Source of the DNA: a virus
DNA: 35,529 nt
Virus record (IMG/VR): IMGVR_UViG_3300030099_003332
Span: 1 to 35,529 of that record
Reading direction: 5' to 3' (one strand)
Below, piece by piece: positions 12,484-29,237 of this stretch. How positions within the stretch are numbered: the first letter of the stretch is position 1; the number at the start of each line of letters is the position of its first letter. The notes under the pieces are model-generated. The model searched no databases, was not told the DNA's origin, and saw only the letters and a program-made list of their open reading frames with translations. The translations under genes and the position numbers were made by a program.

Positions 12484-13329
12484 ATGACTTATTATTTATA
12501 CCACATACCGGGTAAAAAGATCGGTGTGACAAGTAATCTTAAAGATAGGGTTACAAAACAACAAGGCTATAAGTCAGACGAGTATGAAGTTCTTGATCAG
12601 AGTGAAGATATAGATTATATATCTAAACGTGAGATAGAACTTCAACAGTCTTATGGCTATAAGGTTGACAGAAAATTATATAAAGACTTATTTGATAATA
12701 TGAAAATAAACGCAACAGAGATGACATCTACTTTTCCAGTACCACTTAACAAGTTGAAAGGTAGATTGATGGATAATTTAGGTAAAAGTTGGGAAACAGC
12801 TTTTGGTACATTTACACTTAACATGGATTCAGTTAAATGGATAATAGAAAATGCTAAAACATCTATGTACGATGAAAACAGAAGTTATATTTACAATAAA
12901 GCTTTCTTTGAAGAGATATTAAATAAATATGAAAATGTATCTAATAAAGTTGCAGAACGAAATAAAGAGTTTATAGCCGCGTTAAAAGCTGAATTAGTAT
13001 CTAAAGATGATGACTTTAAATCAGTTGACCCTAATAACGATAGATTTGATAATATAAGATCATGGGCTAAACAAAGAGGTTTATATGATAAAGGCGATAC
13101 TAAAACTCAGTTTTGTAAATTAATGGAGGAAGCTGGTGAGCTTGGTAGAGCTGTGCTTAAAGATGATAAGACTGAATTTATAGATGCTATTGGTGATATG
13201 ATTGTAGTATTAACTAACATGGCACACTTAGGCGGTACAACTGTTGAGCATTGTATTGATTCAGCTTATGAAGTTATATCTAAGCGTACAGGTAAAATGG
13301 TTAACGGAACATTTGTAAAAGATAATTAA
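12484..13329 (+). CDS. GIY-YIG-like / MazG nucleotide pyrophosphohydrolase fusion
   Basis: The 281-aa protein has three parts. Residues 1-65 look like a degenerate GIY-YIG domain: YYLYHIPG, then KKIGVTSNLKDRV with R22, and SKREIELQ. The middle (about 75-180) contains INATEMTSTFPVPLNKLKGR and matches no function I know. Residues 188-281 form a MazG-type all-alpha domain with KLMEEAGELGRAV (E215, E216, E219) and EFIDAIGDMIVVL (E231, D234, D238), the metal-binding pattern of NTP pyrophosphohydrolases. It could cleave dCTP/dUTP to monophosphates for the preceding enzyme, or lower ppGpp-like signals. The substrate is unproven. It lies 10 nt after the TS-like gene. Confidence 0.75.
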   Translation: MTYYLYHIPGKKIGVTSNLKDRVTKQQGYKSDEYEVLDQSEDIDYISKREIELQQSYGYKVDRKLYKDLFDNMKINATEMTSTFPVPLNKLKGRLMDNLGKSWETAFGTFTLNMDSVKWIIENAKTSMYDENRSYIYNKAFFEEILNKYENVSNKVAERNKEFIAALKAELVSKDDDFKSVDPNNDRFDNIRSWAKQRGLYDKGDTKTQFCKLMEEAGELGRAVLKDDKTEFIDAIGDMIVVLTNMAHLGGTTVEHCIDSAYEVISKRTGKMVNGTFVKDN

Positions 13330-13330
13330 T

Positions 13331-13624
13331 ATGAAAGAGAAAACAATTAAATTTAGAGATCCAGTTGTCGAAAGTGTAGTAGATAAGTTTGTATCAAGAT
13401 CAGATGTTGGTTTTGAAAAGTACGGTAAAACGTTACATGATGAGAGAACTGGTGGTCATAAAGACTTGTTAGGTTATCTTAACGATGTACAGGAAGAATT
13501 AATGGATGCAGTATTATATATACAAGCTGCACGTGAAGAGCTAGCAGAAAGAAAAAATGATGGTAGCTTTTTCAGAGGCGAAAGCCAAGGTTTACCTTAT
13601 TACGTAACAGATGTGGCGGGGTAA
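13331..13624 (+). CDS. Small MazG-like (all-alpha NTP pyrophosphatase) phage protein
   Basis: This 97-aa protein carries SRSDVGFEKYGKTLHD followed by GYLNDVQEELMDAVLYIQAA (about residues 48-67). The latter resembles the E-E-x2-D metal-binding helix of MazG-like and dimeric dUTPase-like proteins, in a form often found in phages. It is shorter than complete MazG domains and may be a half-size or accessory version. The C-terminal 20 residues look extended. It lies 1 nt after the MazG fusion gene and overlaps the endonuclease gene by 14 nt. A nucleotide-pool role fits its neighbours but is not certain. Confidence 0.6.
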   Translation: MKEKTIKFRDPVVESVVDKFVSRSDVGFEKYGKTLHDERTGGHKDLLGYLNDVQEELMDAVLYIQAAREELAERKNDGSFFRGESQGLPYYVTDVAG

Positions 13625-14090
13625 AAAGAAAAAGAAAGGTCCAGTTAGAGCAAAGAAAACCGTCGTTGACGGTATTTCTTTCTCTTCAGGACTTGAAGCT
13701 TATATGTACAAAGCTTTAAAAGAAGCTAATATAAAAGCTAAATATGAAGGTAAAACCTATGAGATTATGCCAGCATTTCAATTTAAATGTGAAGCATACG
13801 AACGACAAGCAAATAGCAAAGGTGAATATAAAAATAGAGGAAATACGAAAGTACGTAGTATTAATTATACACCGGACTTTGTGGGAACTGGCTTTATCAT
13901 CGAATGTAAGGGTAGACCCAATGAGTCTTTTCCTATACGTTGGAAGCTATTTAAAGCTTATGTTGTTAAGAATTTACCAAAGGTTAAACTGTACAAACCA
14001 CAAAATCAAAAAGAATGCGACGAGACGATAAAGTTAATAATTGGAAGTCGAAAGAAAAGGCAAGACGTAAATATAGAGAACGTCAAATAG
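13611..14090 (+). CDS. Endonuclease I-like Holliday-junction resolvase (T7 gp3 type)
   Basis: This 159-aa PD-(D/E)XK nuclease aligns by eye with T7 endonuclease I. FSSGLEAYMYKAL places the catalytic E29 (T7 E20). INYTPDF supplies D89 (T7 D55). FIIECKG supplies E98 and K100 (T7 E65, K67). An insertion rich in charged residues (about 58-82) separates the first and second motifs. The very basic start, MWRGKKKKKG, may bind DNA. It would resolve branched replication and recombination intermediates before packaging and degrade host DNA. It works logically with ERF, exonuclease and ligase. It overlaps the genes on either side. Confidence 0.85.
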   Translation: MWRGKKKKKGPVRAKKTVVDGISFSSGLEAYMYKALKEANIKAKYEGKTYEIMPAFQFKCEAYERQANSKGEYKNRGNTKVRSINYTPDFVGTGFIIECKGRPNESFPIRWKLFKAYVVKNLPKVKLYKPQNQKECDETIKLIIGSRKKRQDVNIENVK

Positions 14091-14309: not shown

Positions 14310-14522
14310 ATGAAAGAGCAAACATTATTAGAAATGAAAAATAAAGTTGAGGCTACTAATAGAGTTATTCAGCAAATGATTAATGAGCTGATGCATCTTA
14401 GAGAGTTAGGAGTTGGAACTTTAGAAACAATTAAACTAATGCCTGGGTATGACGAGGCATTAGAAAAACTTAAAGAATCCTTAACTAAAAATGAAAAAGA
14501 AAAAGACGAACTACCCACTTAA
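14310..14522 (+). CDS. Coiled-coil hypothetical protein, 70 aa
   Basis: The protein starts MKEQTLLEMKNKVEATNR and is almost wholly helical, with heptad-like spacing through IQQMINELMHLREL and a highly charged end (KNEKEKDELPT). It probably forms a coiled coil or helical hairpin. It begins right at the preceding stop and overlaps the secreted-protein gene by 32 nt. I do not recognise the function. Confidence 0.6.
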   Translation: MKEQTLLEMKNKVEATNRVIQQMINELMHLRELGVGTLETIKLMPGYDEALEKLKESLTKNEKEKDELPT

Positions 14523-15375
14523 AACCTTTTGGTTGTTTTTAATAGCTTTCTTTTTAGGTTTATGCGAGCAAACATGTGGTCAAACTGTAGGACTAATGCC
14601 AGCAGATGGTCTTTGGTACGAATGGACTGTTGACGATGCTTTATTGTATGACGACGGTTATACAGGTAATTATAAAAATGATGGACTAGGAGCCTTAACA
14701 GTTTACCCAACTGTAGGGTATACTTCATTTGAATTTATTGATTTCGATGTAGAATTTGAAGCGTCTAACTGTGGTTGGGATTATTTAGAAGTATACCATG
14801 GTGAAACATTTGATAGTCTAATAGGTAGGTATTGTGGAACAACTCTACCTCCTATTATAGAAAGTTCACATCCTTCTGGAGCTTTAACTTTATTGTGGAG
14901 CTCAGATCTTAGTGTTAGTAGAAGTGGTTTTATAATATATATAAAAACATTATCAGGTCCATTGCCTATTACTTTAAAGTCTTTTGTTGGTTATCCAGCT
15001 CAAGACGGTGTTATAGTTGAATGGACTGTATTGTCTGAAGTTAATAACAACTACTTTACTATTGATAGATCATTTGATTGCTATGACTGGGAGGAGTTAA
15101 CTACAGTTCCAGGAAATGGTAATCACAATAACGAAATGTCATATAGCGCGTTTGATGAAAACCCAATTATAGGTATTAATTATTATAGGTTAAAACAAAC
15201 TGACTATAATGGTGATTATGAATACTTCAATCCTATCGCTGTTGTTGTAAAACCTAAAAGAAGATTTTTAGAGAAAGTAATTAACCTCACTGGTCAAGAG
15301 GTAGATGAGAATTATAAAGGAGTAGTTATTGATATCTACTCAGATGGTGTTAACGAGAAAAGAATACAAAAATAA
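14491..15375 (+). CDS. Secreted CUB-domain protein with T9SS-cargo-like C-terminus
   Basis: This 294-aa protein starts with a signal peptide (KKKK, then TFWLFLIAFFLGL; cleavage likely near residue 31). A CUB-like domain spans about 32-152, with CGWDYLEVYHG (C94), IGRYCGTTLP (C115) and SRSGFIIYI. Residues 158-252 match the linker typical of Bacteroidota surface proteins: LPITLKSFVGY, EVNNNYFTIDRS, GINYYRLKQTDYNGDY. The end, VINLTGQEVDENYKG and DIYSDGVNEKRIQK, resembles the last strands of a T9SS sorting domain, though the usual N-terminal YPNP part is missing. It should be exported and perhaps anchored on the host surface. It was probably acquired from a host. The ribonucleotide reductase gene overlaps its stop by one nt. 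Its role (adhesion, exclusion, host behaviour) is unknown. Confidence 0.8.
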   Translation: MKKKKTNYPLKTFWLFLIAFFLGLCEQTCGQTVGLMPADGLWYEWTVDDALLYDDGYTGNYKNDGLGALTVYPTVGYTSFEFIDFDVEFEASNCGWDYLEVYHGETFDSLIGRYCGTTLPPIIESSHPSGALTLLWSSDLSVSRSGFIIYIKTLSGPLPITLKSFVGYPAQDGVIVEWTVLSEVNNNYFTIDRSFDCYDWEELTTVPGNGNHNNEMSYSAFDENPIIGINYYRLKQTDYNGDYEYFNPIAVVVKPKRRFLEKVINLTGQEVDENYKGVVIDIYSDGVNEKRIQK

Positions 15376-17234
15376 TGGAGGTATCAAATAGAATTTTGTC
15401 AGATATTACAGTATATATGAAGTATGCTAAGTATATACCGGAATTAAATCGAAGAGAAACGTGGGATGAATTAGTGACGAGGAATATGAACATGCATATA
15501 AAGAAATATCCAAAACTAGAAGAGCAAATAAGAGACAATTACAAGTTAGTGTATGACAAAAAGATTTTACCTTCAATGCGTAGCATGCAATTCGGTGGTA
15601 AGCCGATTGAAATATCTCCTAATAGAATTTATAATTGCGCTTACTTACCTGTTGAGACTGTTGACGCTTTTAGCGAGATAATGTTTTTATTATTAGGTGG
15701 TACTGGTATAGGTTACTCAGTACAGAGACATCACGTAGCTAAACTACCACCTGTTAATAAACCATATCCAAAACGTAAACGTAGATTTTTAATTGGTGAC
15801 TCAATAGAAGGTTGGGCTGACGCTATTAAAGTATTAATGAAGTCTTATTTAAATGGTAAGAGTTCACGTATTGAATTTGACTACTCAGACATCCGCCCTA
15901 AGGGAGCGCAACTTGTAACTTCAGGTGGTAAAGCTCCAGGTCCTCAACCATTGAAAGAATGTATTGTAAAACTAACCGGTATGCTTGATCAAAAAGAAGA
16001 TGGTGATCAACTTACGACAGTTGAAGTACATGATATGGTTTGTCATATTGCTGATGCTGTGTTAGCTGGTGGTATTCGTAGAGCGGCTTTAATAGCTTTG
16101 TTCTCTGCAGATGATAATGAAATGATAGCATGTAAGTCTGGTAACTGGTGGGAAACTGATCCACAAAGAGGTAGAGCTAATAATTCAGCTGTATTAATGA
16201 GACATAAGATAACTAAAGAGTTTTTTATGGATATATGGAAACGTGTAGAACTTTCTGGAGCTGGTGAACCTGGTATATACTTAAATAATGATAAAGATTG
16301 GGGAACTAATCCATGTTGTGAAATAGCTTTACGTCCATATCAATTCTGTAACTTATGTGAAGTTAATGCTTCAGATATTGTTGATCAAGAAGATTATGAA
16401 TCAAGAGTTAAAGCTGCAGCGTTTATAGGTACGTTACAAGCGGGTTATACAGACTTTCACTACTTAAGAGACGTATGGAGAGAGACTACAGAGAAAGAAG
16501 CATTGATTGGTGTTAGTATGACTGGTATTGCTTCAGGTGCTGTGTTAGGTTTAGATATGGCTAAAGCTGCTGAAGTCGTTAAAAAAGAGAATGCAAGAGT
16601 TGCAAAGTTGATTGGTATAAAAACATCAGCACGTACGACAACCGTAAAGCCTGCAGGGACGACATCTCTGACATTAGGAACATCATCGGGTATTCATGCA
16701 TGGCATAACAAATACTATGTACGTAGGATCCGCGTAGGTAAAAATGAATCTATATATAGTTATATAGCTAAAAACCATCCTACATTAATTGAAGATGATT
16801 ATTTCCGTCCTCACGATACAGCAGTAATATCTATTCCACAGAAAGCTCCAGCTGGTGCAATACTTAGAACTGAATCACCATTTCAACTATTAGATCGTAT
16901 AAAGAAGATCGCTACTGAGTGGGTGAGAACTGGTCACAGAAGAGGAAGTAACACTCACAATGTATCAGCTACAGTATCATTAAAAGAAAATGAATGGGAG
17001 GCAGCTGGTGAATGGATGTGGGATAACAGAGATTACTACAATGGTTTATCTGTATTACCTTACGATGGTGGTACTTATGTTCAAGCACCTTTTGAAGATA
17101 TAAAAGCTAGTGAGTACAATGAGATGATGAAACAATTAGAAGATATTGATCTATCTAAAATCTCAGAGACTGAAGATAACACAGATCTTTCAGGTGAATT
17201 AGCTTGCGTTGGTGGTGCTTGCGAAATAGTTTAA
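15375..17234 (+). CDS. nrdJ: Class II (adenosylcobalamin-dependent) ribonucleoside triphosphate reductase
   Basis: This 619-aa protein fits the monomeric B12-dependent class. YNCAYLP (C88) and FCNLCEV (C325) supply the redox pair. NPCCEIAL supplies the thiyl Cys C314 and E316, equivalent to C408/E410 of the Lactobacillus enzyme. MFLLLGGTGIGYSVQRH and SGNWWETDPQRGRANN are also typical. The tail CVGGACEIV carries the shuttle cysteines C611 and C616. It makes dNTPs from NTPs and needs neither oxygen nor a small subunit, but depends on host cobalamin. It is shorter than cellular homologues, as phage versions usually are. It is the last + strand gene and is followed within 10 nt by the terminator hairpin. 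Confidence 0.92.
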   Translation: MEVSNRILSDITVYMKYAKYIPELNRRETWDELVTRNMNMHIKKYPKLEEQIRDNYKLVYDKKILPSMRSMQFGGKPIEISPNRIYNCAYLPVETVDAFSEIMFLLLGGTGIGYSVQRHHVAKLPPVNKPYPKRKRRFLIGDSIEGWADAIKVLMKSYLNGKSSRIEFDYSDIRPKGAQLVTSGGKAPGPQPLKECIVKLTGMLDQKEDGDQLTTVEVHDMVCHIADAVLAGGIRRAALIALFSADDNEMIACKSGNWWETDPQRGRANNSAVLMRHKITKEFFMDIWKRVELSGAGEPGIYLNNDKDWGTNPCCEIALRPYQFCNLCEVNASDIVDQEDYESRVKAAAFIGTLQAGYTDFHYLRDVWRETTEKEALIGVSMTGIASGAVLGLDMAKAAEVVKKENARVAKLIGIKTSARTTTVKPAGTTSLTLGTSSGIHAWHNKYYVRRIRVGKNESIYSYIAKNHPTLIEDDYFRPHDTAVISIPQKAPAGAILRTESPFQLLDRIKKIATEWVRTGHRRGSNTHNVSATVSLKENEWEAAGEWMWDNRDYYNGLSVLPYDGGTYVQAPFEDIKASEYNEMMKQLEDIDLSKISETEDNTDLSGELACVGGACEIV

Positions 17235-17308: not shown

Positions 17309-17584
17309 TTATTTTTTAGCTTTATTGTTATTGCAGAACTTACTTGCAGCTTCTCTACTTCCAAATCCCCACTTCTTCAAAGCCATAGCGTAATTAGATG
17401 GTTCTCCATTTTTCTTTTTCATACTACCTTTCATTCCAGCAAATCTACAAGCAAATGATATTCTACGTTTACCCTTACCGCTGGTCTGTCTTTTACCTAA
17501 AGTCTTACCAGTTTCTTTTTTATGTTTAGCTCGCATTTTCCTATTACGCTTTTCATATCTAGCGTTAGAACTCATCTTACTCAT
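17309..17584 (-). CDS. Basic phage protein of unknown function, 91 aa
   Basis: The N-terminal 45 residues are extremely basic (NARYEKRNRKMRAKHKK). The C-terminal half, RRISFACRFAGMKGSMKKKN followed by ALKKWGFGSREAASKFC, resembles a small-protein motif recurring in marine phage genomes near structural genes. The ATG overlaps the upstream stop (TGA/ATG); a second Met lies three codons in. It may bind DNA or act in head assembly; I have no firm function. It is the last gene of the - block before the terminator. Confidence 0.65.
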   Translation of the reverse strand: MSKMSSNARYEKRNRKMRAKHKKETGKTLGKRQTSGKGKRRISFACRFAGMKGSMKKKNGEPSNYAMALKKWGFGSREAASKFCNNNKAKK

Positions 17585-17804: not shown

Positions 17805-20800
17805 TTAAGGTTTATATTTTTTATTATTTCTTTTTTCGGCTTCCATAATAGCTTCAACTCTTTGCTCTTCAGTTTTTAATTTCTTTTTAATATAGTTAAC
17901 GCTATAACCGTGTTTTCTTAATATTGTAGTTTGTTCTACTTTAGTATAATCGTAGTACAACTTTTGTTTTTCAATTTGCTCTTTAGTTGTTTTAGGTTTG
18001 TAAAACTTTTTATTCTTTTTCTGCAACCTAAGTATTTCTTCTACTCTCTGATCCTCAGTCTTTAATTCTTTTATTTGCTTTTCATTTAAACCAAACTTCT
18101 CTAATATTTCAACTTGTTGTTTCTTAGAATATACGTCAGGGTTTTCTTTAGCATAGTTAAAGTCTTTCTCATCTTGAGATAGCAATTGCCACTCAGGCCA
18201 ACCTAATACCATAGCTGTTGATTGCCAAGCTTCATGTTCACCATCAAACGCAGCGGATAAATTATCAGCTTTCTGAAACAACCTCTCTAAAGGTAAAGCA
18301 GTAGCTCCTTGTACAACCTTAGCTAACGATCTCCAAGCTGGATTATCTAAGCTAAATCCTTTTTCAAATATCTCATCAGAGTGTTTATCCCATATTCTAC
18401 CGGCTCCTTGAAACTGTTGTAATTTACTTTTTATTGCTGGTGAAAAACCTAATAACTCTTGCCACGCGTCTACATATTCAGGTCTGTCTTTCTTGCTTCT
18501 TTCGTATATGTCTATACCTGTGTTTTTAAGAACAGATACAGTCATACCAGCTAAACCAATACCTCTAAGTATATTATCAAGCATGCTATTAACAATACCA
18601 AACTCTCGCTTTTGCCATTCTTCTTCTGTGTTATCTCCAAACCCTAACATGAAAGCACCTTGTTGGAAGAAGTTAAACCAAATGTTTTGAGCAACACCGT
18701 AGTAAATTATTTTAGATATATGCTCTTTTTTATCACCTCTACCATTCATTAAATCTTGAAAAGATCTTTTCTGTAATCTAGCATACTGCATAGGAGTGTT
18801 AACAAACTGTAGCATTACTCTACCAATATCACTTGCTTGCTGTTGTGATATCTTACCAGGATCAGATGATTGTTGAGATGCTTCTGAAACATTTCTAAAT
18901 TCTTCAAAAGCTATTTCTTCTGCTTTACTTAGTTCCATGTCAGGAAACTTCTTCATTAAATCTTTTATCCTATTTCTATAAAACGTAGCTCCACCAGAAG
19001 CTATAGCAAAACTATCAGCAAACTTAGTAGGTAAATAACCTTTTTCTATAATGTAGTTAAGAACAGCTTTAGCTTTATTAGTGGATGTTTTAGCGGCGTC
19101 AGCTATTTCATTTTCACTAATGTTTAATTTCAAACCATTACGTCTATCAACTAGATAATCAGAGTTTATTAACTTATAAAAGTCTTTCCAGTATTGTGGT
19201 TGATTAGCAAATGCTTTACCAGCTCTATAAGGATTATTAAAACTCCAGTTAACATAGTTAACAGAAGATATAGTCTGTAATAAAGCTGATCTCATGTTAG
19301 TAAACATAATAGCTCCTTGTCCTTGGTTTATGTAATTAAGAACACCATTACTCAATCTATTACCTCCTTCAATCCTATTTTTACCAGCTTTCATTCTAGC
19401 TAAACTGTTCTCTAAAGCTTCTCTATATTTACTACCGTATATAGCTTCTAACTTATTTAAATTTTTTGGTGAGAAAATAAGTTTAACATTTTCATTCCAC
19501 TCAGCTAGATATTTATTTCTCTTTGTAGTATTCAATAAGTCTATAAGATCAGTTGTAATTGTACCACTTAGCCAATGTCTACCAGGTTCAGAGTAACCAT
19601 CACCTTTAGTTATCTCTAATATTTGATTAGCAAAAGCTTCTAAGTTAGGATCTTTTTCAATAATTTTATTTAACTCTGCTAAATCAGTTTTAGAAAGTCC
19701 AGGTATTTCCTTACCAGTTTTATTCCATAAATAAACTCTAACAGCTTGTTCATTTGTAAAACCAGACTTAGTTGTTTTACGTAAATCTTTAGGTACGTTT
19801 AGTTGTTTCTTTAACGCTTTAAAGTCAGTCATTAAATTTGCTCTGTCTGTACTTAAATTAGCTGTCGCTCTACTGTATGGTTTAAATAAGTGTTTATTAT
19901 ACCAGTCCATGTTAGCTTCACCTGTTTTACCTTTACCAAGTGTAGGATATAATAAACCTAAGAAATCTTCAGCTGATGGTGGTATAAAAAATTTACGTCT
20001 ACCTTTTTTAGCACCTATTACTTCTGCTTTAGCGGGTGAAAACTCTTTATAAGCTTCAACACCAGTGCTACTTTCTAGCAACTCATTAAACTCTCTATCT
20101 ACATCTTTACTAAATGAAGCTCTCTCTTGTTGAACTTCACCTTTTATATCAACTTGATTTAACACTTGTCTTACACCTGCGGTTTGTTGACTTTGTAATA
20201 CCTCTCTTACAGCAGCTTGTTCTTCAAGAGTAAATGGTTCAATTGTTTCAAAATCTTTTGGAGCAGGATCTGAAGCTTGCATTTCAAATCCACGTCTATC
20301 TACCTTTTGGTCAATCAACTTTTGAGCCCACTCTTGTCTAGATATTGCGAAGTCAGCTCCAGTTTCACTGTAACCCTCGTAACGTTTCATATTCCATCCA
20401 AGTTCGTCAGCCCACATTTTAGCTATACGTTCATACACTTTACTTCTACTAGGTCTGTCAGCTGAAAATACTATTTCTTTAATAGGTATTTTATTTGACT
20501 TAATAAGATCAACTAACCCGTTAGTAACTATGCTTACAACCTCGTAAGCGTTACCGTCACCAATCATATCAAACACTCTATCTTTTCCAACAACTCTAGC
20601 AAATGCAAATTCCACGTTACCTCTACCACTAGCATCTGCTAAAATAACTTCATACTTCTTGTCGCCTATCTTAAACTTACTTATAAAAGTTCTATCATTT
20701 TCTTTATGTTGTTTCCATTTTAAATCTCTTTTCGTATCTAAACTAAAGCTAGCTTTTTTACCTTTCAATTTACCACTTGTTGTATCGGGTTTACCGGATA

Positions 20801-23800
20801 ACCTAGCGGATTTATAACCAGGTTTAGATATAGTATAAGATCCGCTGCCATCTAAATAGACATCAGCTTCAAACTGCCAACCTAATCTTTTAGCCCACAG
20901 TTTAGTAAATGTTTCATAAACTCTAGCTCTGCTTGGTTCTAAAGCTGAAAAGTTTATTTCTTTTAAACCTTGTCTATTTATTAAATCAGTTACTCCATTA
21001 CCAACAACACTAAATATTCTATAAGCATCTCCTTTACCTGTTATGCCTAACTTACCTATTGAGTCTTGAAATTTCTTTTCCCCAACTCCAAAGTCTAATT
21101 CCCAAGAACCTTTTTCTACTTCAGTTAGTCTTATATTAACTTTTTGACCACCAACTTCTGTTGAGGTATTAAATTCATTTCTATAAAACTCTTTAGTTTT
21201 CTTCCAGTCTAATTCTTTTTTAGTGTCAAAGCTAAAGCTAACATCTTTACCAGAGTTTTTACTTAACTCTTTATTTAAGTCTTGTGTAAGTTTTTCTTCG
21301 CTAGGTAATTCTTTAGGTTTAGCTCTTTGTACTTTAGATTTTACTTGTAAACCTTTTAAAGCTTGACCTACAGCTTGAACATTTCCGATGTGATCATCAG
21401 CAAAATAAAAGTCATTATAACCTTCAGCGGCTTTTTCAACCATCCATCTTGCCTTAGCAGCAGGTGCACCATCAGCTAATCCAGTTATATTTTCTATAGG
21501 TATATCTAATCCCATAGATTTTAAGAACTCATGTATAGATGCAGCTGCTTCAGGTGGACGAGCAGTTAATACAAACATGTTACGATCACCTTTAGCTTCA
21601 TTAATCATTTTAGCTACATTAAGTAATGGACCTTCTTTACCTTCGATTACTTTTGAAAATTCTCTAAAATCAAATTGCGCACCCTCACCAGCTAACTTAT
21701 CTCCTAACTCTGCAAAACCACCAGCTTGAAGTTTACCTCTTTCAGTAGCGTTTAATCTTTCATTTACAGCTTGAACAAACTCTGTTGGTACTTCACCTGG
21801 TTTTAAGTTATCTGTGTTAACCTCAAAAAAGTCTTCACCAAATTCTTTCGCGTATTCTGCCTTATTAGCATTAACCTTATCCCAAGTAGTTTCAACAATA
21901 AAATCTTTTAATGATCTCTCTTTACGCGCTCTGTTACGTTCTAATGCAACATCTTTTGACGTCTCAACATAAATCATCTTAACGTCATATCCTTGATCCT
22001 TAAGTGCCTCTACCTTAGCCCTCGTGGCCTTTAATGAAGCTCCAGTACCATCTAATATAACACCGTCACCTCTAGTAGTAAATTTATCTAACTTTGTATC
22101 AGCTATTTTTTTAGCCAACGCACCCATTTCAGATCTTACTGACCTTTGAACAGCATCGTAATTAGCTTCAACTTCAGAAAGTCCAACTAATTTCTTAGCC
22201 CACTCAAGTGATATATCTTGATTAACAATTTTATAACCTTGCTTTTCTAAACCTAAACCTTTTACAATACTAGATTTACCACTACCAGGACCACCAGCTA
22301 ATACAACTGCTTTAAGTTTAGTTGATGGTTTACCAGTGGTGTTAGGTTTACTATATATAACTCTACTGTTTGTTCTAGCTAATGTGTCATCAAAATCAAA
22401 TACTCTAGCTTTTTTAGGTGTTTGATTTCTTTTTCTAGCATTATCTAAAGCTTTATCAAACATCTCAGCGTTTTTAGTTTGAGATGCTGCGTTTCTTGGT
22501 ATATCTTTAGAATATGAAGGTTGAACTTCTAAATTAGCTTTAATAGCTTTTTGTACTTCAGCATACGCATTGGCTTGATACTCTCCTATTTTTTTAACTC
22601 TTCCATTTTCAAAAGTAATAATAGGTTCTTTGAACATTCCATAAGTAAACTCGTTTAAGTATCTATCCCATCTCGATGTATACTCCAAGGGTTTGCTTTC
22701 TTGATATCTTAAGTTTACTATTTTATCTATAGTTTCAGGTATTATACTAGCTGAAGTATCTTTAAATATATCTCTTAGTTGTGCCTCTGTTATTTCACCT
22801 TTGACAAATCTAGCAAGTTCAACTTGAATAGTTCTAACAGGTGGGTTATGTTCATAAACATAGTCTTTATAGTTTTTAGATTTACTAGGTATAAAACTAT
22901 CTACATGATAAGCCGCTCTTAATGGAGAGTTCATATTACTAACAAGAGTTTTCATATACATGTCAATATCTCTAATATCTACTTCTCCTTTTTCTAATAA
23001 CTCTTTTAAACCTGAAACATCTTCTATTATTATTTCTTTATTTAGATCAGCATACTCTTTACTTAATTTTAAATCTTGTTTTAACTTATCATTTAACTTA
23101 GCACCTTCTTCTATAGATTGACCTTCAAAATTTTTAAGAAACTTTTTAGTGGCTTGCGAGGATTGAGCAAAGCTTTTTGTTTCAACTTTTTTACCATCAA
23201 CTGTTACACTTTTTATATCACCTTTGGGACCTCTTTCTACTTTAACAGACTCATTAAAAACTTTTTCACCAAGTATTGGTTTAACTAAAATATCAAGAAG
23301 TTGTTGTTGATTATAAAATATACCATCTCTAGAACTACTTTTCTTTATTCCAGTAGCAACTAATAAACCATCAACCCAATTCAAACTTGCATTACCAAGT
23401 CTAGCATTACCTGCTAAACCATTTTTATATCTTTGTAAAATATCTTGTACAAAGTCATAATTATTTTTGTAGTTTTCGTATCTATTTCTGTTTAGCTTAA
23501 TAAGTGAATTAGTAAAACTATATACTCTTTCACTACTATTAAACATATCAGTCTCCGTATTACCAAGTAGTTCACTAGTGTTGCCTTCTTTAAACGTTTG
23601 CTCTATATAGGAGTTTTCTAGATACTTTTGTAAATCTTCTGCTGTAACTTTTTTAAGACCTTCTTTTAGCGTAGGCGCTTGTTCAATAACTTTTGACCAT
23701 TCTTTATTTATAAGATCTAATATACCTTTCTGTATTCCTTTTTCTCCAAATAGTTTATTAGTCAACGTTTCTATAGGCGCAATATCATTAGACAAAGCGT

Positions 23801-26800
23801 GCATAAACTCGTATACATTTTCAGTATATATTTCTAAATTTTTTTCAGAGTTTTTTAATGTCTTTATTTTACTTACAATTTTACCTAAGTTCTCCCTTTG
23901 GTTTTCTATACCTTTTACTAACTCAGCAAAGTTTTTAGTTTGAGATAAAGCTATTTCTTTAGAAAAACTAACAGTTGGATCAACACCTATTTTATCTGCT
24001 ATTTTATTAATAGCACTTTCACCTTCAATCAATAACTTTTCTGCTTCAGTTAGTCTTTTGCTTTCAACAAGAGCTGTAGATAAAGCGTCTTTAGCTATTT
24101 TCTCTGCTAATAACTTTCCAACAGCTAACCTCATTTCGTTAGGTCTACCTTTAGTAGTTAAATAATCAGCTATTTCTTTTGGTGTAGGATTTTTCTGTCT
24201 ATACTTAGCTCGTTGAGAAGCTATATCAGTTATACGCTCTTGCGCTGGAGCTTTTTTAGCTTCTGCGAAAGTGTACTTACCAACCTCTTCATAAAATATA
24301 TCCCACTTTCTGTTTCTTAGTAACTCAGGATTTTCTTTATTTATTTTAAGAAGTTCTGGTGCTAACTTATCTTCTAAAAACTTTCTGTATTCTGGTTTAA
24401 TTTTACCAGCTCCACCACTCTTAGGTATATTTTCTAGTATGTCTTTTTTAAGTTTCTCTTGTACAACTTCAGTAAATCTTGGACCAGGTTTTTCTCCCTT
24501 TCTTTTTCTTTGAAAAAAAGTATAATCACCTTTTTTAATATTAGGTAGTTGTTCTTTTACGATGTCAGCAACAGCATCCATTACTTCTGCTTGCTTTTCA
24601 CCACTTAGATTTACAACTTTCTTAGCTGTAGACTTAACTACTTTTTGTCTAGCTTCAGCATCCATTCTAGCTTCAACACCGCTCTCAGCTCCAGTTTCTT
24701 TTACAGCTCCAACTTCTCCAGCAGCAACATCTAATGACTTAGTAAATTCTGTTTTCTTAAACTCCTTTATAACATCGCCTCTTCTAAACTTAATTAAAGG
24801 ATTTAAATAACCTATTAAACTATTGTTCTTTTCTGGATTAAACTTAATAAGTTCGTTGGTTATTTTATCTCTCATCTCAGAGTTAAACTCTTCAAAAGAT
24901 TTACCAAATACATTATCACCTGTTAAATCTCCTTTGAATAGAGGATCTAATTTACCTTTATTTAAAGCTTCATAAGCTTTTTTAATACCAGTATTATTCC
25001 ACTGTTCTTTGGTCATTTTATAATTACCATCTACATCTCTACCGCCTTCAACTAGTTCATTTATAATTTCATTTTGATCTGCTAATCTATTACCTTTATC
25101 TTTACCAAATTTTTTTACTAGCTTACTTCTTTCCTTCGCGTTAAATTCCTCTGTCGCTTTGTTTTCAGCTTGAATTACTTCTTGTTTTTCAGCATTGATT
25201 TCTTTTAACTCAGCAAGTAACTCTGCTTTCTTTTCACCTTCAGCAGCTTTCCATTCTTTCGTTTTAGCAATAGCTTTGTCTTGGATCTTTCTTACTTGTT
25301 CAGACATTATGTCTTTAGAAGCAGCCATTTTAACTGGCTCAGTAGCTTTTCTTTCTTTTGGTACAAAACCTAATTCACCTTCAGTATAGTTTTTTATAAA
25401 CTCATATACATCTTTACCACTATTAAACTCTGCATTTTTAGCTGGAGTTTTCTTAAATATATTAGTGATAGCTTTTCCAATACCTAAATAGTTTTTACTT
25501 TTAGCAGGAGAATATTCTATTGAACCATCTTTAATAGCATCGTTAAAAGCATTGAAAAATTCTTTTTCAACATCTTGGTTTTGCATATCCATTTTTCTTT
25601 GAACTTCAGTTAGTTCTTCAAATGACAATTGCTTTTTAAGTTCTTTAACTAATCTACTAACTTCTGCTGGATCTTTTAAATATGGATCTAATAAAGCATG
25701 TAATACTTCATGCGTACCAATAGTTATCTTACCTACTTCTTGAGCTCTTTGAAGATCAATAAATACTTTACCAGTACCTTTCTCTATAAAAAATCCAGTT
25801 GCACCAGTAGCATCAACTCCTATTTCTTTAGCAGCTTCTAAAAACTCCTCTGTAGTCTCAAATGTTTTGTAGTTTTCTTCTACTATTTGCTTAGCTTTAT
25901 CAATAGATATTTTTTGCTTTTTGCTAATTGCTTCGGCGTATATCTGTTTTGATTGCTCTATGTCTTCAAGTCTTCTAGTTTCTAGATATCCTTCATTTTC
26001 TACAATAAGATCATCTACTCTACTATCTATTTGTTTTAATCTTTGCTGAGCTTGTTTTAATTCTACTATTCTAGTTGTTTGTTCTTTATTTTCTTTTATG
26101 TTATCTATTTTATCTTGTAGATTTTCACTTTCTTGTTGTAAATCAAACAACTCAGTTCTTTGCTCACTGTTTCTTTTAAATCCCATAGCATCAGCAGACT
26201 CAGACATCTGTGAATACTTTTTCTTTATCATGTCTGCTGTATAATCAGTTACAGCCGTCTCTGCAGTCTTAACATCACCACCCATAACTAACTCAAGTAT
26301 AGTCTTAGGACATCTTTCGATAAAATCAATTTGTTCAGGACTTAGATTTATTTCACCACCAGGGTTATTAGCTCTTTGCTCAGATATAGTTTTAATTATT
26401 TCTGCAGCCTTTTGTTGATAAACGTTATATGTATTTTTAGGGTTATTAGCTTCGGTTATCATAGCTTTGACGGCTTGTAGTTCTTTATTAAAACTTAAAG
26501 TCCTAGCGTCATATTCTAACTCAGATAGTTTTTTAGATAATTCTGTTCCTATAAAAGCACCACCAGTCTCTGGATCATATTGACCTTTATATTTAGGATC
26601 GTTTAATAACTCTTTTCTTTTCTTATTGAAAGCATTGTCAAGCATTTCGTTAGTATACCACTTATTACGTATACCATACTTTTTGGCTATAGCAACAACA
26701 TTATCTGAACCTTGATAACCTAATATTTCTTTATTTAATTGTTTTTGAAAACGCCTAAGTTGAGCTGGTGCATTTACAGAATGAGACATATAGCCAGACA

Positions 26801-29237
26801 ATATCATTTGAGTTGTTAATATAGCGGCTTTTTCTAAGCTAGTTATATGCTTAAATGTTTCTTCATCAAGATTACCTCTAGCCCAAGCGTCAAATAATTC
26901 TACAGCTACAGCTATACCAGAAGCACCTACACCTGTTACAGTTCTCTGCGCAAGAGTTCTTACTGGTATGGTTATCATACTTTTAGGTTGGCCTTTCATT
27001 ATTGGCGCTAATACCTTACTATTATATATTTTTTTACTAATAGGCTTCATTAAACCAAAACCAGCGGCAATAGACAAAGGCATTCCTTCACCACCAGTTA
27101 ATTCAGAAATTTCATTATAAACAGACATAGCGCCTATCTCTGTACCAGCATTAGCCATCATTTCTAAACCAAAAGCTAACGACTTAGATTCACTTATAGC
27201 AATAGCTTCAGCGGCTTGGGCAGCTCCCTTAGCTTTACTAGACTCTAAAGCTACTTTTGCAAAAGATCTACCAATAGCGTTTGATGATCCACCAAAAAGT
27301 CTTGATGCGACTTTAGCTATAGGTCCTCCAGTTAGATGAACAACACCCATCATCATCATAAAGTCTGGTAATCCAGCTGTAACTTGCTCAGTAAAACTTA
27401 CTTTAGCTCTTTCCTTTAAATTATCAGGTATGTTATATCCTAAATCAGTCATAACACCTTCAAAGTCTGCCGCTATTTTATTAGCTGTTTCAGTTTTTAA
27501 ACCACCTGTCATTCTATTTAAAACAGCCTCACCCATTACGTCAAACCAACCAGTTCTTTCCATAGAAGCTGGATCATAGTTATATTCAATAGCTTTAGTA
27601 AGAGTTAAAAACTTAGCAAGCTTATCATTATATAAAGCTGTGTATTCGTTTATGTCAGGTAGTCCAGTTAAGTGATAAGCCATTCTTTCACCTGGCTTAC
27701 CAGCCATTGCCATGCGTTTTAAATTTTCTTCAAAGCTTATGCCTTTTGTTTCAAAAGCTTGCTCTGCATTTTCAAACTTTTTTCCAGGAGTAGTTTTGCT
27801 TTTAAAAAAAGCTTCTTTACCTATTTGAGATAACTGTTTAAAAGTGCCTTGATCTCTACCGTCAGCTATTATCTTACCCAACACAGGACTATCTTGATCA
27901 GTAAATAGTTTATTTAATGCAACCATCTCGTACATTAGTTTATTTCTATCTTCTTTTAACTGATCTAAATCTGTCTTACCTTCTTTAGCTTGTTCTAAGA
28001 TCTGCTTGTTTTCTTCGGCTTGTATTGGATTTCTTTTAGCATAGTCATTTATAAAAGTTTCTGTTTCTTCATTAAATAACTTCGAACCTGTTTCGGCGCC
28101 TTGACCTTCACCAATTACAGCACGCCATTTTATATCATATAGTAGTTTAGCTTTTTTAACCTCTGGGTCATCATTGCCTTTTTCATCTCTAAGTTTCTTC
28201 CACTCTTTTTCTTTTTCTTTTAACTCCAGCATTTCTTTAGTAGCGTACATGCTAGTAGTCATTTCGGCATTTTCATTTATTTCTTCTTCTGCCTCTTTTA
28301 TTAACTTAGATTCTTCTATTACACCTGGAGCACCAACAGCATATACACCATATCCAGGTGTATCTTTTCTTAACACAACAGTACCTTCTTTATAATACTT
28401 TTGTCTTTTTTCTTTTACTTTAGCATCAATGTCTTCTTGATATGTTAAGCTACCTTCATGATCAATCCATTGTTGTTGTAGTTGAGAAAGTTCACTTTCA
28501 TTTTTAACTGGATTAAACATCGAAGGACTTAATCTATTGTATTTTAAGTCTGGATCACTAATAAACATACTACCATCAGCAAAGCTTTCTTCCCAAACGT
28601 TATATCCAAAGTGACTAGTTTTAACATTAAAGTCTTCTATTTCCTCTTTATTTATAACTCCTTTTTTGTATAAGTCTATTACTTCGTCATCTGCTTCAGG
28701 ATATAATTCTTTTATTTTAGCATCTTCCTCTTGTTTCTTTTGAGCAGTAAACATTCCTTCGGCTACAGCTTCAGGATCTGGACCAATACCAATATTAAAA
28801 TTATCAACCATATTGCGATAATTTTCACTATCTTCAAATCCAGTCTCTTGTTTCCATTGCTCAAACTCTTCGTTAATTTCTTTTTTAACATCATCTTCTG
28901 AAGGTTCAACAATCGGATCAATAAAAAGTGGATCAGTAGTAACAGTTCTTTCAGTTGTTATAGTTGGTTTAGTTAAACCTAACTGACCCATTTTAACAGC
29001 TTGCTCATCAACTTCTAACTCAGCTACTTCAAGCTCCTTCTCTCTTTCTACTTCTGTTTCTACGCTTGGATCTGGTGGCGTAAAATCTAAATTATAGTTT
29101 TGATTTACAGAAGAACCAGAAGGACTATACGGACCAGAAGATACATCAATAGCACTAGGATTTTCTTGAACAAATTTGTCTATGTTTTCTTCAGAAACAT
29201 TGTATACTGTACCATCTTCAGTTTTATAAATTGGCAT
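17805..29237 (-). CDS. Giant multi-domain internal virion protein, 3810 aa
   Basis: I read, in order: a short N-terminal motif (IYKTEDGTVYNVSEENIDKF); acidic helical segments; a Gly/Ala/Met-rich hydrophobic region (about 620-840) that could insert in membrane; a coiled coil before the zinc-protease motif HEVLH (1176-1180); long helical regions; a HAD phosphatase whose motif I (DFDDT, 2281-2285) and motif II (LTARP, T2558) are separated by a P-loop kinase (GGPGSGKSS, 2315-2323), with motif IV ADDH (D2614/D2615); a duplicated domain (about 2667-2828 and 2830-2995); FFIPPSAEDFLGLLYP near 3080; and two C-terminal repeats (about 3707-3747 and 3767-3810). The motif S-[FY]-S-x-[DE] recurs between domains. 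Size, position among virion genes and mixed enzymatic domains fit a protein packaged and ejected with the DNA. I see no RNA polymerase signature. Exact functions are inferred. Confidence 0.85.
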   Translation of the reverse strand: MPIYKTEDGTVYNVSEENIDKFVQENPSAIDVSSGPYSPSGSSVNQNYNLDFTPPDPSVETEVEREKELEVAELEVDEQAVKMGQLGLTKPTITTERTVTTDPLFIDPIVEPSEDDVKKEINEEFEQWKQETGFEDSENYRNMVDNFNIGIGPDPEAVAEGMFTAQKKQEEDAKIKELYPEADDEVIDLYKKGVINKEEIEDFNVKTSHFGYNVWEESFADGSMFISDPDLKYNRLSPSMFNPVKNESELSQLQQQWIDHEGSLTYQEDIDAKVKEKRQKYYKEGTVVLRKDTPGYGVYAVGAPGVIEESKLIKEAEEEINENAEMTTSMYATKEMLELKEKEKEWKKLRDEKGNDDPEVKKAKLLYDIKWRAVIGEGQGAETGSKLFNEETETFINDYAKRNPIQAEENKQILEQAKEGKTDLDQLKEDRNKLMYEMVALNKLFTDQDSPVLGKIIADGRDQGTFKQLSQIGKEAFFKSKTTPGKKFENAEQAFETKGISFEENLKRMAMAGKPGERMAYHLTGLPDINEYTALYNDKLAKFLTLTKAIEYNYDPASMERTGWFDVMGEAVLNRMTGGLKTETANKIAADFEGVMTDLGYNIPDNLKERAKVSFTEQVTAGLPDFMMMMGVVHLTGGPIAKVASRLFGGSSNAIGRSFAKVALESSKAKGAAQAAEAIAISESKSLAFGLEMMANAGTEIGAMSVYNEISELTGGEGMPLSIAAGFGLMKPISKKIYNSKVLAPIMKGQPKSMITIPVRTLAQRTVTGVGASGIAVAVELFDAWARGNLDEETFKHITSLEKAAILTTQMILSGYMSHSVNAPAQLRRFQKQLNKEILGYQGSDNVVAIAKKYGIRNKWYTNEMLDNAFNKKRKELLNDPKYKGQYDPETGGAFIGTELSKKLSELEYDARTLSFNKELQAVKAMITEANNPKNTYNVYQQKAAEIIKTISEQRANNPGGEINLSPEQIDFIERCPKTILELVMGGDVKTAETAVTDYTADMIKKKYSQMSESADAMGFKRNSEQRTELFDLQQESENLQDKIDNIKENKEQTTRIVELKQAQQRLKQIDSRVDDLIVENEGYLETRRLEDIEQSKQIYAEAISKKQKISIDKAKQIVEENYKTFETTEEFLEAAKEIGVDATGATGFFIEKGTGKVFIDLQRAQEVGKITIGTHEVLHALLDPYLKDPAEVSRLVKELKKQLSFEELTEVQRKMDMQNQDVEKEFFNAFNDAIKDGSIEYSPAKSKNYLGIGKAITNIFKKTPAKNAEFNSGKDVYEFIKNYTEGELGFVPKERKATEPVKMAASKDIMSEQVRKIQDKAIAKTKEWKAAEGEKKAELLAELKEINAEKQEVIQAENKATEEFNAKERSKLVKKFGKDKGNRLADQNEIINELVEGGRDVDGNYKMTKEQWNNTGIKKAYEALNKGKLDPLFKGDLTGDNVFGKSFEEFNSEMRDKITNELIKFNPEKNNSLIGYLNPLIKFRRGDVIKEFKKTEFTKSLDVAAGEVGAVKETGAESGVEARMDAEARQKVVKSTAKKVVNLSGEKQAEVMDAVADIVKEQLPNIKKGDYTFFQRKRKGEKPGPRFTEVVQEKLKKDILENIPKSGGAGKIKPEYRKFLEDKLAPELLKINKENPELLRNRKWDIFYEEVGKYTFAEAKKAPAQERITDIASQRAKYRQKNPTPKEIADYLTTKGRPNEMRLAVGKLLAEKIAKDALSTALVESKRLTEAEKLLIEGESAINKIADKIGVDPTVSFSKEIALSQTKNFAELVKGIENQRENLGKIVSKIKTLKNSEKNLEIYTENVYEFMHALSNDIAPIETLTNKLFGEKGIQKGILDLINKEWSKVIEQAPTLKEGLKKVTAEDLQKYLENSYIEQTFKEGNTSELLGNTETDMFNSSERVYSFTNSLIKLNRNRYENYKNNYDFVQDILQRYKNGLAGNARLGNASLNWVDGLLVATGIKKSSSRDGIFYNQQQLLDILVKPILGEKVFNESVKVERGPKGDIKSVTVDGKKVETKSFAQSSQATKKFLKNFEGQSIEEGAKLNDKLKQDLKLSKEYADLNKEIIIEDVSGLKELLEKGEVDIRDIDMYMKTLVSNMNSPLRAAYHVDSFIPSKSKNYKDYVYEHNPPVRTIQVELARFVKGEITEAQLRDIFKDTSASIIPETIDKIVNLRYQESKPLEYTSRWDRYLNEFTYGMFKEPIITFENGRVKKIGEYQANAYAEVQKAIKANLEVQPSYSKDIPRNAASQTKNAEMFDKALDNARKRNQTPKKARVFDFDDTLARTNSRVIYSKPNTTGKPSTKLKAVVLAGGPGSGKSSIVKGLGLEKQGYKIVNQDISLEWAKKLVGLSEVEANYDAVQRSVRSEMGALAKKIADTKLDKFTTRGDGVILDGTGASLKATRAKVEALKDQGYDVKMIYVETSKDVALERNRARKERSLKDFIVETTWDKVNANKAEYAKEFGEDFFEVNTDNLKPGEVPTEFVQAVNERLNATERGKLQAGGFAELGDKLAGEGAQFDFREFSKVIEGKEGPLLNVAKMINEAKGDRNMFVLTARPPEAAASIHEFLKSMGLDIPIENITGLADGAPAAKARWMVEKAAEGYNDFYFADDHIGNVQAVGQALKGLQVKSKVQRAKPKELPSEEKLTQDLNKELSKNSGKDVSFSFDTKKELDWKKTKEFYRNEFNTSTEVGGQKVNIRLTEVEKGSWELDFGVGEKKFQDSIGKLGITGKGDAYRIFSVVGNGVTDLINRQGLKEINFSALEPSRARVYETFTKLWAKRLGWQFEADVYLDGSGSYTISKPGYKSARLSGKPDTTSGKLKGKKASFSLDTKRDLKWKQHKENDRTFISKFKIGDKKYEVILADASGRGNVEFAFARVVGKDRVFDMIGDGNAYEVVSIVTNGLVDLIKSNKIPIKEIVFSADRPSRSKVYERIAKMWADELGWNMKRYEGYSETGADFAISRQEWAQKLIDQKVDRRGFEMQASDPAPKDFETIEPFTLEEQAAVREVLQSQQTAGVRQVLNQVDIKGEVQQERASFSKDVDREFNELLESSTGVEAYKEFSPAKAEVIGAKKGRRKFFIPPSAEDFLGLLYPTLGKGKTGEANMDWYNKHLFKPYSRATANLSTDRANLMTDFKALKKQLNVPKDLRKTTKSGFTNEQAVRVYLWNKTGKEIPGLSKTDLAELNKIIEKDPNLEAFANQILEITKGDGYSEPGRHWLSGTITTDLIDLLNTTKRNKYLAEWNENVKLIFSPKNLNKLEAIYGSKYREALENSLARMKAGKNRIEGGNRLSNGVLNYINQGQGAIMFTNMRSALLQTISSVNYVNWSFNNPYRAGKAFANQPQYWKDFYKLINSDYLVDRRNGLKLNISENEIADAAKTSTNKAKAVLNYIIEKGYLPTKFADSFAIASGGATFYRNRIKDLMKKFPDMELSKAEEIAFEEFRNVSEASQQSSDPGKISQQQASDIGRVMLQFVNTPMQYARLQKRSFQDLMNGRGDKKEHISKIIYYGVAQNIWFNFFQQGAFMLGFGDNTEEEWQKREFGIVNSMLDNILRGIGLAGMTVSVLKNTGIDIYERSKKDRPEYVDAWQELLGFSPAIKSKLQQFQGAGRIWDKHSDEIFEKGFSLDNPAWRSLAKVVQGATALPLERLFQKADNLSAAFDGEHEAWQSTAMVLGWPEWQLLSQDEKDFNYAKENPDVYSKKQQVEILEKFGLNEKQIKELKTEDQRVEEILRLQKKNKKFYKPKTTKEQIEKQKLYYDYTKVEQTTILRKHGYSVNYIKKKLKTEEQRVEAIMEAEKRNNKKYKP

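Follow-up and report, generated by a model that had tools for sequence, protein, structure and literature searches.

A putative type IX secretion cargo with a short C-terminal tail and an exchangeable ectodomain in a marine crAss-like phage and its relatives

The gene at positions 14,491 to 15,375 (plus strand) of a viral DNA stretch of 35,529 nucleotides, here called the window, encodes a protein of 294 residues that probably represents a phage-encoded cargo of the host type IX secretion system (T9SS), a reading to which we assign a probability of about 0.7. According to the best reading of the sequence comparisons, this cargo has an exchangeable ectodomain and would, in the course of infection, be presented at the host surface or shed from it. 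A broader proposal, for which the odds are close to even, is that unrelated Bacteroidota phages share a cassette made of a Q-rule signal peptide and an FnIII/short-CTD tag, with ectodomains (CUB, MAM, P-domain and others) swapped between the two, and coat infected cells with its products via the host T9SS; on this view, the short C-terminal domain (CTD) would be a minimal T9SS signal of wide distribution that phages often carry and that existing models overlook.

An IMG/VR virus record of 61,945 bases contains the window as its left part, and its genes mark the source, a marine phage, as crAss-like: the crAss-like muzzle proteins PF25729 and PF25731 score above their Pfam cut-offs, the gene order is that of crAss-like phages, and a P22_portal match reaches 25.7 bits, slightly below the 26.1 cut-off. 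We infer both the host of the phage and the timing of its infection. The same record (G000, 53821-55374; locus L177) carries a GroEL/Cpn60 homologue (PF00118, 6.7e-58) that is adjoined by a small, apparently GroES-like ORF.

The putative cargo gene, its neighbours and its domains

As the initial annotation had placed it, the gene sits between a small predicted coiled-coil ORF (14,310..14,522, plus strand) and a class II ribonucleotide reductase (RNR; 15,375..17,234, plus strand), the latter recognized by an RNR-II insertion domain above the Pfam cut-off and by phrog_367 (2e-130). The start of the cargo gene falls within the coiled-coil ORF, with which it shares 32 bases, and its stop overlaps the ATG of the RNR at 15,375 (TAATG), which suggests coupled translation. 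A DUF1064 (PDDEXK/endonuclease-like) gene (13,611..14,090, plus strand) forms the left edge of a variable DUF1064-RNR slot and, as indicated by comparison with sister phages, a small basic protein gene (17,309..17,584, minus strand) is kept beyond the RNR. The gene at 12,484-13,329 encodes a MazG/PRA-PH pyrophosphohydrolase with a fused N-terminal stretch that weakly matches T5orf172 (GIY-YIG-like), and a single gene on the minus strand (17,805-29,237) encodes a protein of 3,810 residues that appears to comprise metalloprotease-like, HAD/kinase-like and alpha-helical parts, and whose C-terminal region is kept in sister phages.

The cargo protein is composed of a signal peptide (residues 1-30), a CUB domain (38-154), an FnIII-like domain (158-253) and a tail (254-294), and as a whole it matched no family in NCBIfam or PHROGs. 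Its AlphaFold2 model has a mean pLDDT of 74, with lower values in the CUB half and values above 90 over most of the C-terminal half. The Sec signal peptide (14,491..14,580, plus strand) that had been read at the N terminus was recovered by a pattern test, with a predicted cleavage site CG|QTVG at residues 30/31 that follows the Q-rule described for signal peptide cleavage in Bacteroidota (PMC5837995); the protein thus begins as a short-CTD cargo is expected to. The pattern [ASGTC]|Q after a hydrophobic stretch is found in 64/64 relatives with a recognizable signal peptide, among at least 93 unique proteins, while its chance rate is 0.23 per sequence window in the same proteins (first 27 relatives tested).

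The CUB domain (14,602..14,952, plus strand) is the sole Pfam family matched (PF00431, E = 3.9e-10, 40.5 bits against a gathering cut-off of 21.4, residues 79-149). The nearest PDB entries by sequence are the CUB domains of cubilin and neuropilin (2.1e-27), and also PCPE-1, and Foldseek matches the modelled fold to solved CUB domains such as that of TSG-6 (2wno, TM 0.65 by target), so that the CUB-like domain of the initial annotation is upheld by both profile score and fold. In particular, the cysteine pair C94/C115 and the acidic residues E88, D97 and D139 are common to four aligned CUB domains (the window protein, L088, L089 and L109), the latter three presumably occupying the predicted calcium site of a calcium-binding CUB. 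The fold, the cysteine pair and the acidic positions are thus shared with known CUB proteins, whose solved members are, however, animal extracellular proteins, whereas here the domain is found in a phage protein with a Bacteroidota export signal. Our search found no relevant literature on phage CUB domains. The linker that follows (14,962..15,249, plus strand) had been likened to Bacteroidota secreted proteins, and sequence comparison and the structure model agree: it is an FnIII-like domain of the kind that commonly precedes T9SS CTDs in Bacteroidota and is encoded in 299/395 sampled Bacteroidia genomes.

The short C-terminal tail

The last 41 residues (254-294; 15,250..15,372, plus strand) form a short sorting-domain-like tail with the sequence 'KVINLTGQEVDENYKGVVIDIYSDGVNEKRIQK'. 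Strands are predicted at residues 260-265, 277-283 and 288-293 and build a single three-stranded sheet with a pLDDT of 90-95 in the AlphaFold2 model, so that structure prediction of the C-terminal half, proposed as a check of the initial annotation, returned an ordered module of the size of a short CTD (about 40-55 residues). The tail comprises a motif B-like segment, 'VINLTGQEV', followed by a final hairpin G277-x(12)-K290.

The curated models of type A sorting domains do not recognize this tail. TIGR04183 and PF18962 are unmatched, nothing is retrieved from NCBIfam even at E <= 10, and Pfam returns CUB only. Motif A, the YPNP strand, is absent, as the tail extends 58 residues past the linker motif without a PNP, while the sister proteins L109, L104 and L102 do have a YPNP-type motif A. 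In a profile alignment with full CTDs, the short tail lands on motif B (E = 5e-4, equalled by 0/100 column shuffles), where a strand and an invariant glycine are found. As for motifs D and E, G277 and K290 are near-invariant, and motif D reads GVV (GxV) where GxY or GxN is usual. The profile alignment of the D/E half alone with full CTDs is not significant, with 55/100 shuffles as good, and homology of this half to full CTDs is therefore not claimed.

A precedent for such a signal exists in Prevotella intermedia, in which long (7-strand) and short (43-55 residue) CTDs coexist among T9SS cargo proteins (Ye et al. 2025, PMC11969387). Motifs B, D and E are retained in these short CTDs, whose predicted fold is a single three-stranded sheet made of the counterparts of long-CTD strands 3, 6 and 7; five cleavage sites were mapped in short CTDs, and cleavage and glycosylated C-termini were found with both kinds of CTD (PMC11969387). 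P. intermedia is stated to be the only species reported with both (PMC11969387). The phage tail, likened to these CTDs by their published description, shares with them the C-terminal three-stranded sheet of about 40-55 residues, and differs in following an FnIII-like domain and in having GxV rather than GxY or GxN as motif D. Thus, of the initial proposal that the protein ends in the terminal strands of a T9SS sorting domain lacking its usual part, the likeness of the strands and the absence of YPNP stand, while the description of a lacking part does not, since the tail matches the published short CTD. By analogy, then, the missing YPNP part probably marks a short-CTD kind of signal and not decay.

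The alternative is that the tail is a degenerate sorting domain, so that the protein would be exported by Sec to the periplasm only, there acting on envelope processes or doing little. The lack of a library match and the D/E half without significant alignment to full CTDs are in its favour. Nevertheless we consider it unlikely, as the tail is under purifying selection in CUB orthologues (dN/dS 0.07-0.16), short CTDs have been established experimentally in P. intermedia and bacterial secreted proteins carry the tail independently. Indeed, a profile search found it at the end of secreted proteins in 17/395 Bacteroidia genomes, among which there appear to be a multicopper oxidase, leucine-rich-repeat proteins and a serine hydrolase-like protein (some of these names were read from the sequence). 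Bacterial secreted proteins at six loci (L174, L161, L166, L172, L165 and L160) have the terminal short tail without an FnIII-like linker; the tail is therefore an independent module, and one that NCBIfam models do not cover. A scan of genome contigs gave one bacterial relative only. SprA is present in 17/17 short-tail genomes but also in 385/395 of the sampled Bacteroidia genomes, and its co-occurrence is therefore uninformative on T9SS dependence. On these comparisons, the tail qualifies as a conserved C-terminal module of phages and bacteria, with chance similarity excluded.

Relatives and exchange at phage loci

The relatives comprise at least 93 unique phage proteins on 90 contigs, drawn from 32 loci and the best 80 of 198 candidate stretches in alignment-based scans of viral contigs. 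Among them, the length from the YYRLxQ motif to the C terminus is bimodal: at least 76 tails are short (50-64 residues, one of 37), at least 16 are full (85-106 residues) and none lies between. Since short-tail proteins supplied the query, the ratio of short to full tails is biased, while the gap between the classes is unbiased. The exact C-terminal position and conserved length of the tail in at least 76 phage proteins again argue against degeneration. The ectodomains are of the CUB, MAM, P-domain and PKD-like types, several relatives exceed 900 residues, and some are already present in viral databases, either unnamed or under names such as 'CUB domain' and 'Secretion system C-terminal sorting domain'. 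The search for homologues in phages and genomes suggested by the initial annotation was thus productive in phage contigs and Bacteroidia genomes, and found none among the named isolates of the phage collection. A tree of the FnIII-like domain, computed without the window row and with too few columns to time transfers, shows clustering but no single origin. In the phage collection, relatives with tails of either class are encoded by four uncultured huge phages (462-642 kb); these T9SS-cargo-like proteins (L084-L087, in LR745206, LR756500, LR756502 and LR756504) include one with a full TIGR04183 domain (L085) and some with short or altered tails.

Full tails are recognized by the curated models. 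TIGR04183 scores above its cut-off in L104, L109, L102 and L085, and PF18962 in L104, L109, L102 and L253 (for instance, 26.1 bits against 23 for TIGR04183 in L109 and 31.4 against 27 for PF18962 in L253). The check with sorting-domain models therefore failed for the window protein itself and succeeded for its full-tail relatives. Five relatives (L109-L112 and L253) are laid out like the window protein, except that a full T9SS sorting domain closes the chain, and L109 is 52% identical to the window protein in the CUB domain and 53% in the linker. The recognized type A domains of L109, L104, L102, L085 and L253 share with the window protein the FnIII-like linker ahead and a motif B-like strand, while the first half, with the YPNP strands, is what the window protein lacks. 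A Foldseek search with a model of the FnIII-like domain and full CTD (pLDDT 70, 4 sequences) returned generic FnIII/Ig pairs and no named T9SS CTD. At one syntenic phage locus, whose downstream genes are mostly 73-88% identical, L109 and L104 have full tails and L097 and L100 have short ones. Read from these sequences, the alternation represents a natural exchange of full and short forms, which also speaks against a degenerate tail.

The position of the gene varies as well. Sister phages have the order MazG, a gene for a 97-residue protein, DUF1064, slot A, RNR, slot B, small basic protein and giant protein, and the window cargo gene occupies slot A, between DUF1064 and RNR. In seven sister contigs, slot B is occupied by an oppositely oriented gene for another secreted protein, one that shares the FnIII-like domain and tail (cargo loci L034/L094, L090, L093, L095, L096, L098 and L099). 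Other relatives, whose terminases are 64-65% identical, instead have a CUB-FnIII-tail gene upstream of their terminase gene (L187, L197, L200, L203, L204, L206 and L209). As the cargo gene is found at differing positions, it is therefore a mobile accessory within the phage group. In slot A of L198, again before the RNR, the encoded protein has a signal peptide closer to that of the window protein than any other (score 44, the next being 28) and an FnIII-like domain and tail 49% identical to those of the window protein; in place of CUB, its ectodomain seems to consist of repeats resembling MAM domains.

These positions bear on whether the product could be a virion component, that is, a fibre or decoration protein that attaches to the host through its FnIII and CUB domains. 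CUB- and FnIII-type domains are known in phage structural proteins, related phages have the CUB gene near terminase and tail-fibre-like genes, and L002 lies among fibre-like genes. This reading is nonetheless very improbable, as every relative with a readable N terminus has a Q-rule signal peptide, which is incompatible with ordinary cytoplasmic virion assembly; furthermore, the window gene belongs to a nucleotide operon far from structural genes, and relatives end in real T9SS sorting domains. Least probable of all is a recently acquired host gene fragment or a contaminated assembly without any phage role. All domains are typical of bacterial T9SS cargo, yet orthologues occur in several unrelated phage types beside terminase, portal or capsid genes (for cargo-type genes, L105, L091 and L115), dN/dS is low and the cargo gene overlaps neighbouring phage genes. 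Assembly contamination in particular was rejected on the gene's repeated presence in phages, the low dN/dS and the overlap with phage genes.

Proposed role and known systems

The proposal that the host T9SS places the CUB protein outside the cell has comparative support in the Q-rule signal peptides (64/64), the relatives with full CTDs and the tails alternating at a syntenic locus, while the window tail itself lacks a TIGR04183 or PF18962 match. Upon Sec export and cleavage at the Q-rule site, the protein would fold in the periplasm, where the three-stranded short CTD, with its putative counterparts of motifs B, D and E, may be recognized by SprA/PorV; for P. intermedia, insertion of the equivalent loop into the PorV barrel has been reported. 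The protein would then cross the outer membrane, PorU may remove the tail, and the CUB-FnIII part would be anchored at the surface or released. In earlier work on the HBP35 CTD (reviewed in PMC10202324), its terminal 22 residues proved enough for the secretion of GFP, and motif E lysines were found to be needed.

The surface of the infected cell would thereby be remodelled, in the simplest case, and more speculatively, by masking phage receptors or by binding competing particles (superinfection exclusion). Surface remodelling is the most likely outcome because production together with the early or middle nucleotide genes would precede lysis by a long time, and because relatives exchange the ectodomain but retain the export signals. 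In particular, the placement with the RNR suggests expression before lysis, and exchange of ectodomains with retention of the export parts suggests selection by extracellular agents, for instance competing phages, predators or particles. Export by T9SS could instead serve adhesion between cells or to particles, with aggregation, attachment to marine particles or altered gliding aiding spread or persistence. This possibility, tentative but by no means small, is in line with CUB, MAM, P-domain and PKD-like ectodomains being general adhesion or binding modules and with the relatives of more than 900 residues; the position in the replication operon suggests, on the contrary, a role in intracellular development. 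The most tentative part of the proposal is the benefit to the phage, for which we consider superinfection exclusion the simplest candidate and adhesion or aggregation nearly as plausible.

Phage cargo of the T9SS is already known. 'Cryophage' encodes a type A cargo, for which hijacking of the host system was proposed (Bellas et al. 2020, PMC7468147), and T9SS sorting domains were found near crAss-BACON ORFs (de Jonge et al. 2019, PMC6949934). As in the window family, the phages in these cases encode secreted proteins that bear a host T9SS signal, and the cargo domains vary between phage variants. They differ in that their type A sorting domains are recognized by the libraries and are attached to glycosidase, PA14 or BACON proteins, while the window family has a short signal unseen by TIGR04183 and PF18962, a CUB ectodomain and a distribution over at least 90 contigs. 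The short signal, the CUB family and the swapping of tails and ectodomains are thus new; in the literature searched, there was no report of phage short CTDs, of a CUB-FnIII-short-CTD family or of exchange of tails or ectodomains at syntenic phage loci. The T9SS is the main route for extracellular enzymes and adhesins in Bacteroidota, which are major marine degraders. If the proposal is correct, a large phage family borrows this system and gives infected cells surfaces chosen by the virus, and a signal of about 40 residues, which annotation models overlook and which has up to now been demonstrated in a single oral species, would be widespread and relevant for counting T9SS secretomes.

Other putative envelope or secreted proteins are encoded in related phages. 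The DUF1064-RNR slot of one sister phage (L015:1742-2374) holds a TonB C-terminal domain (PF03544, 3e-20) with a proline-rich spacer, which points to a phage TonB-like envelope protein, and slot B of three others (L007:2610-3182, L033:4567-5145 and L098:7022-7594) holds a conserved lipoprotein-like protein of 191-193 residues whose signal ends in LxSC. Downstream of a T9SS-type gene, two otherwise different contigs (L105:6417-8850 and L106:1364-3862) encode three more signal-peptide proteins (428, 187 and 190 residues), 30-42% identical between them, possibly a phage secreted-protein cluster. In a distant phage (L118:5461-6363), with an RNR 55% identical, an FnIII signal-peptide protein lies directly upstream of the RNR and ends in a shortened tail of another sequence type.
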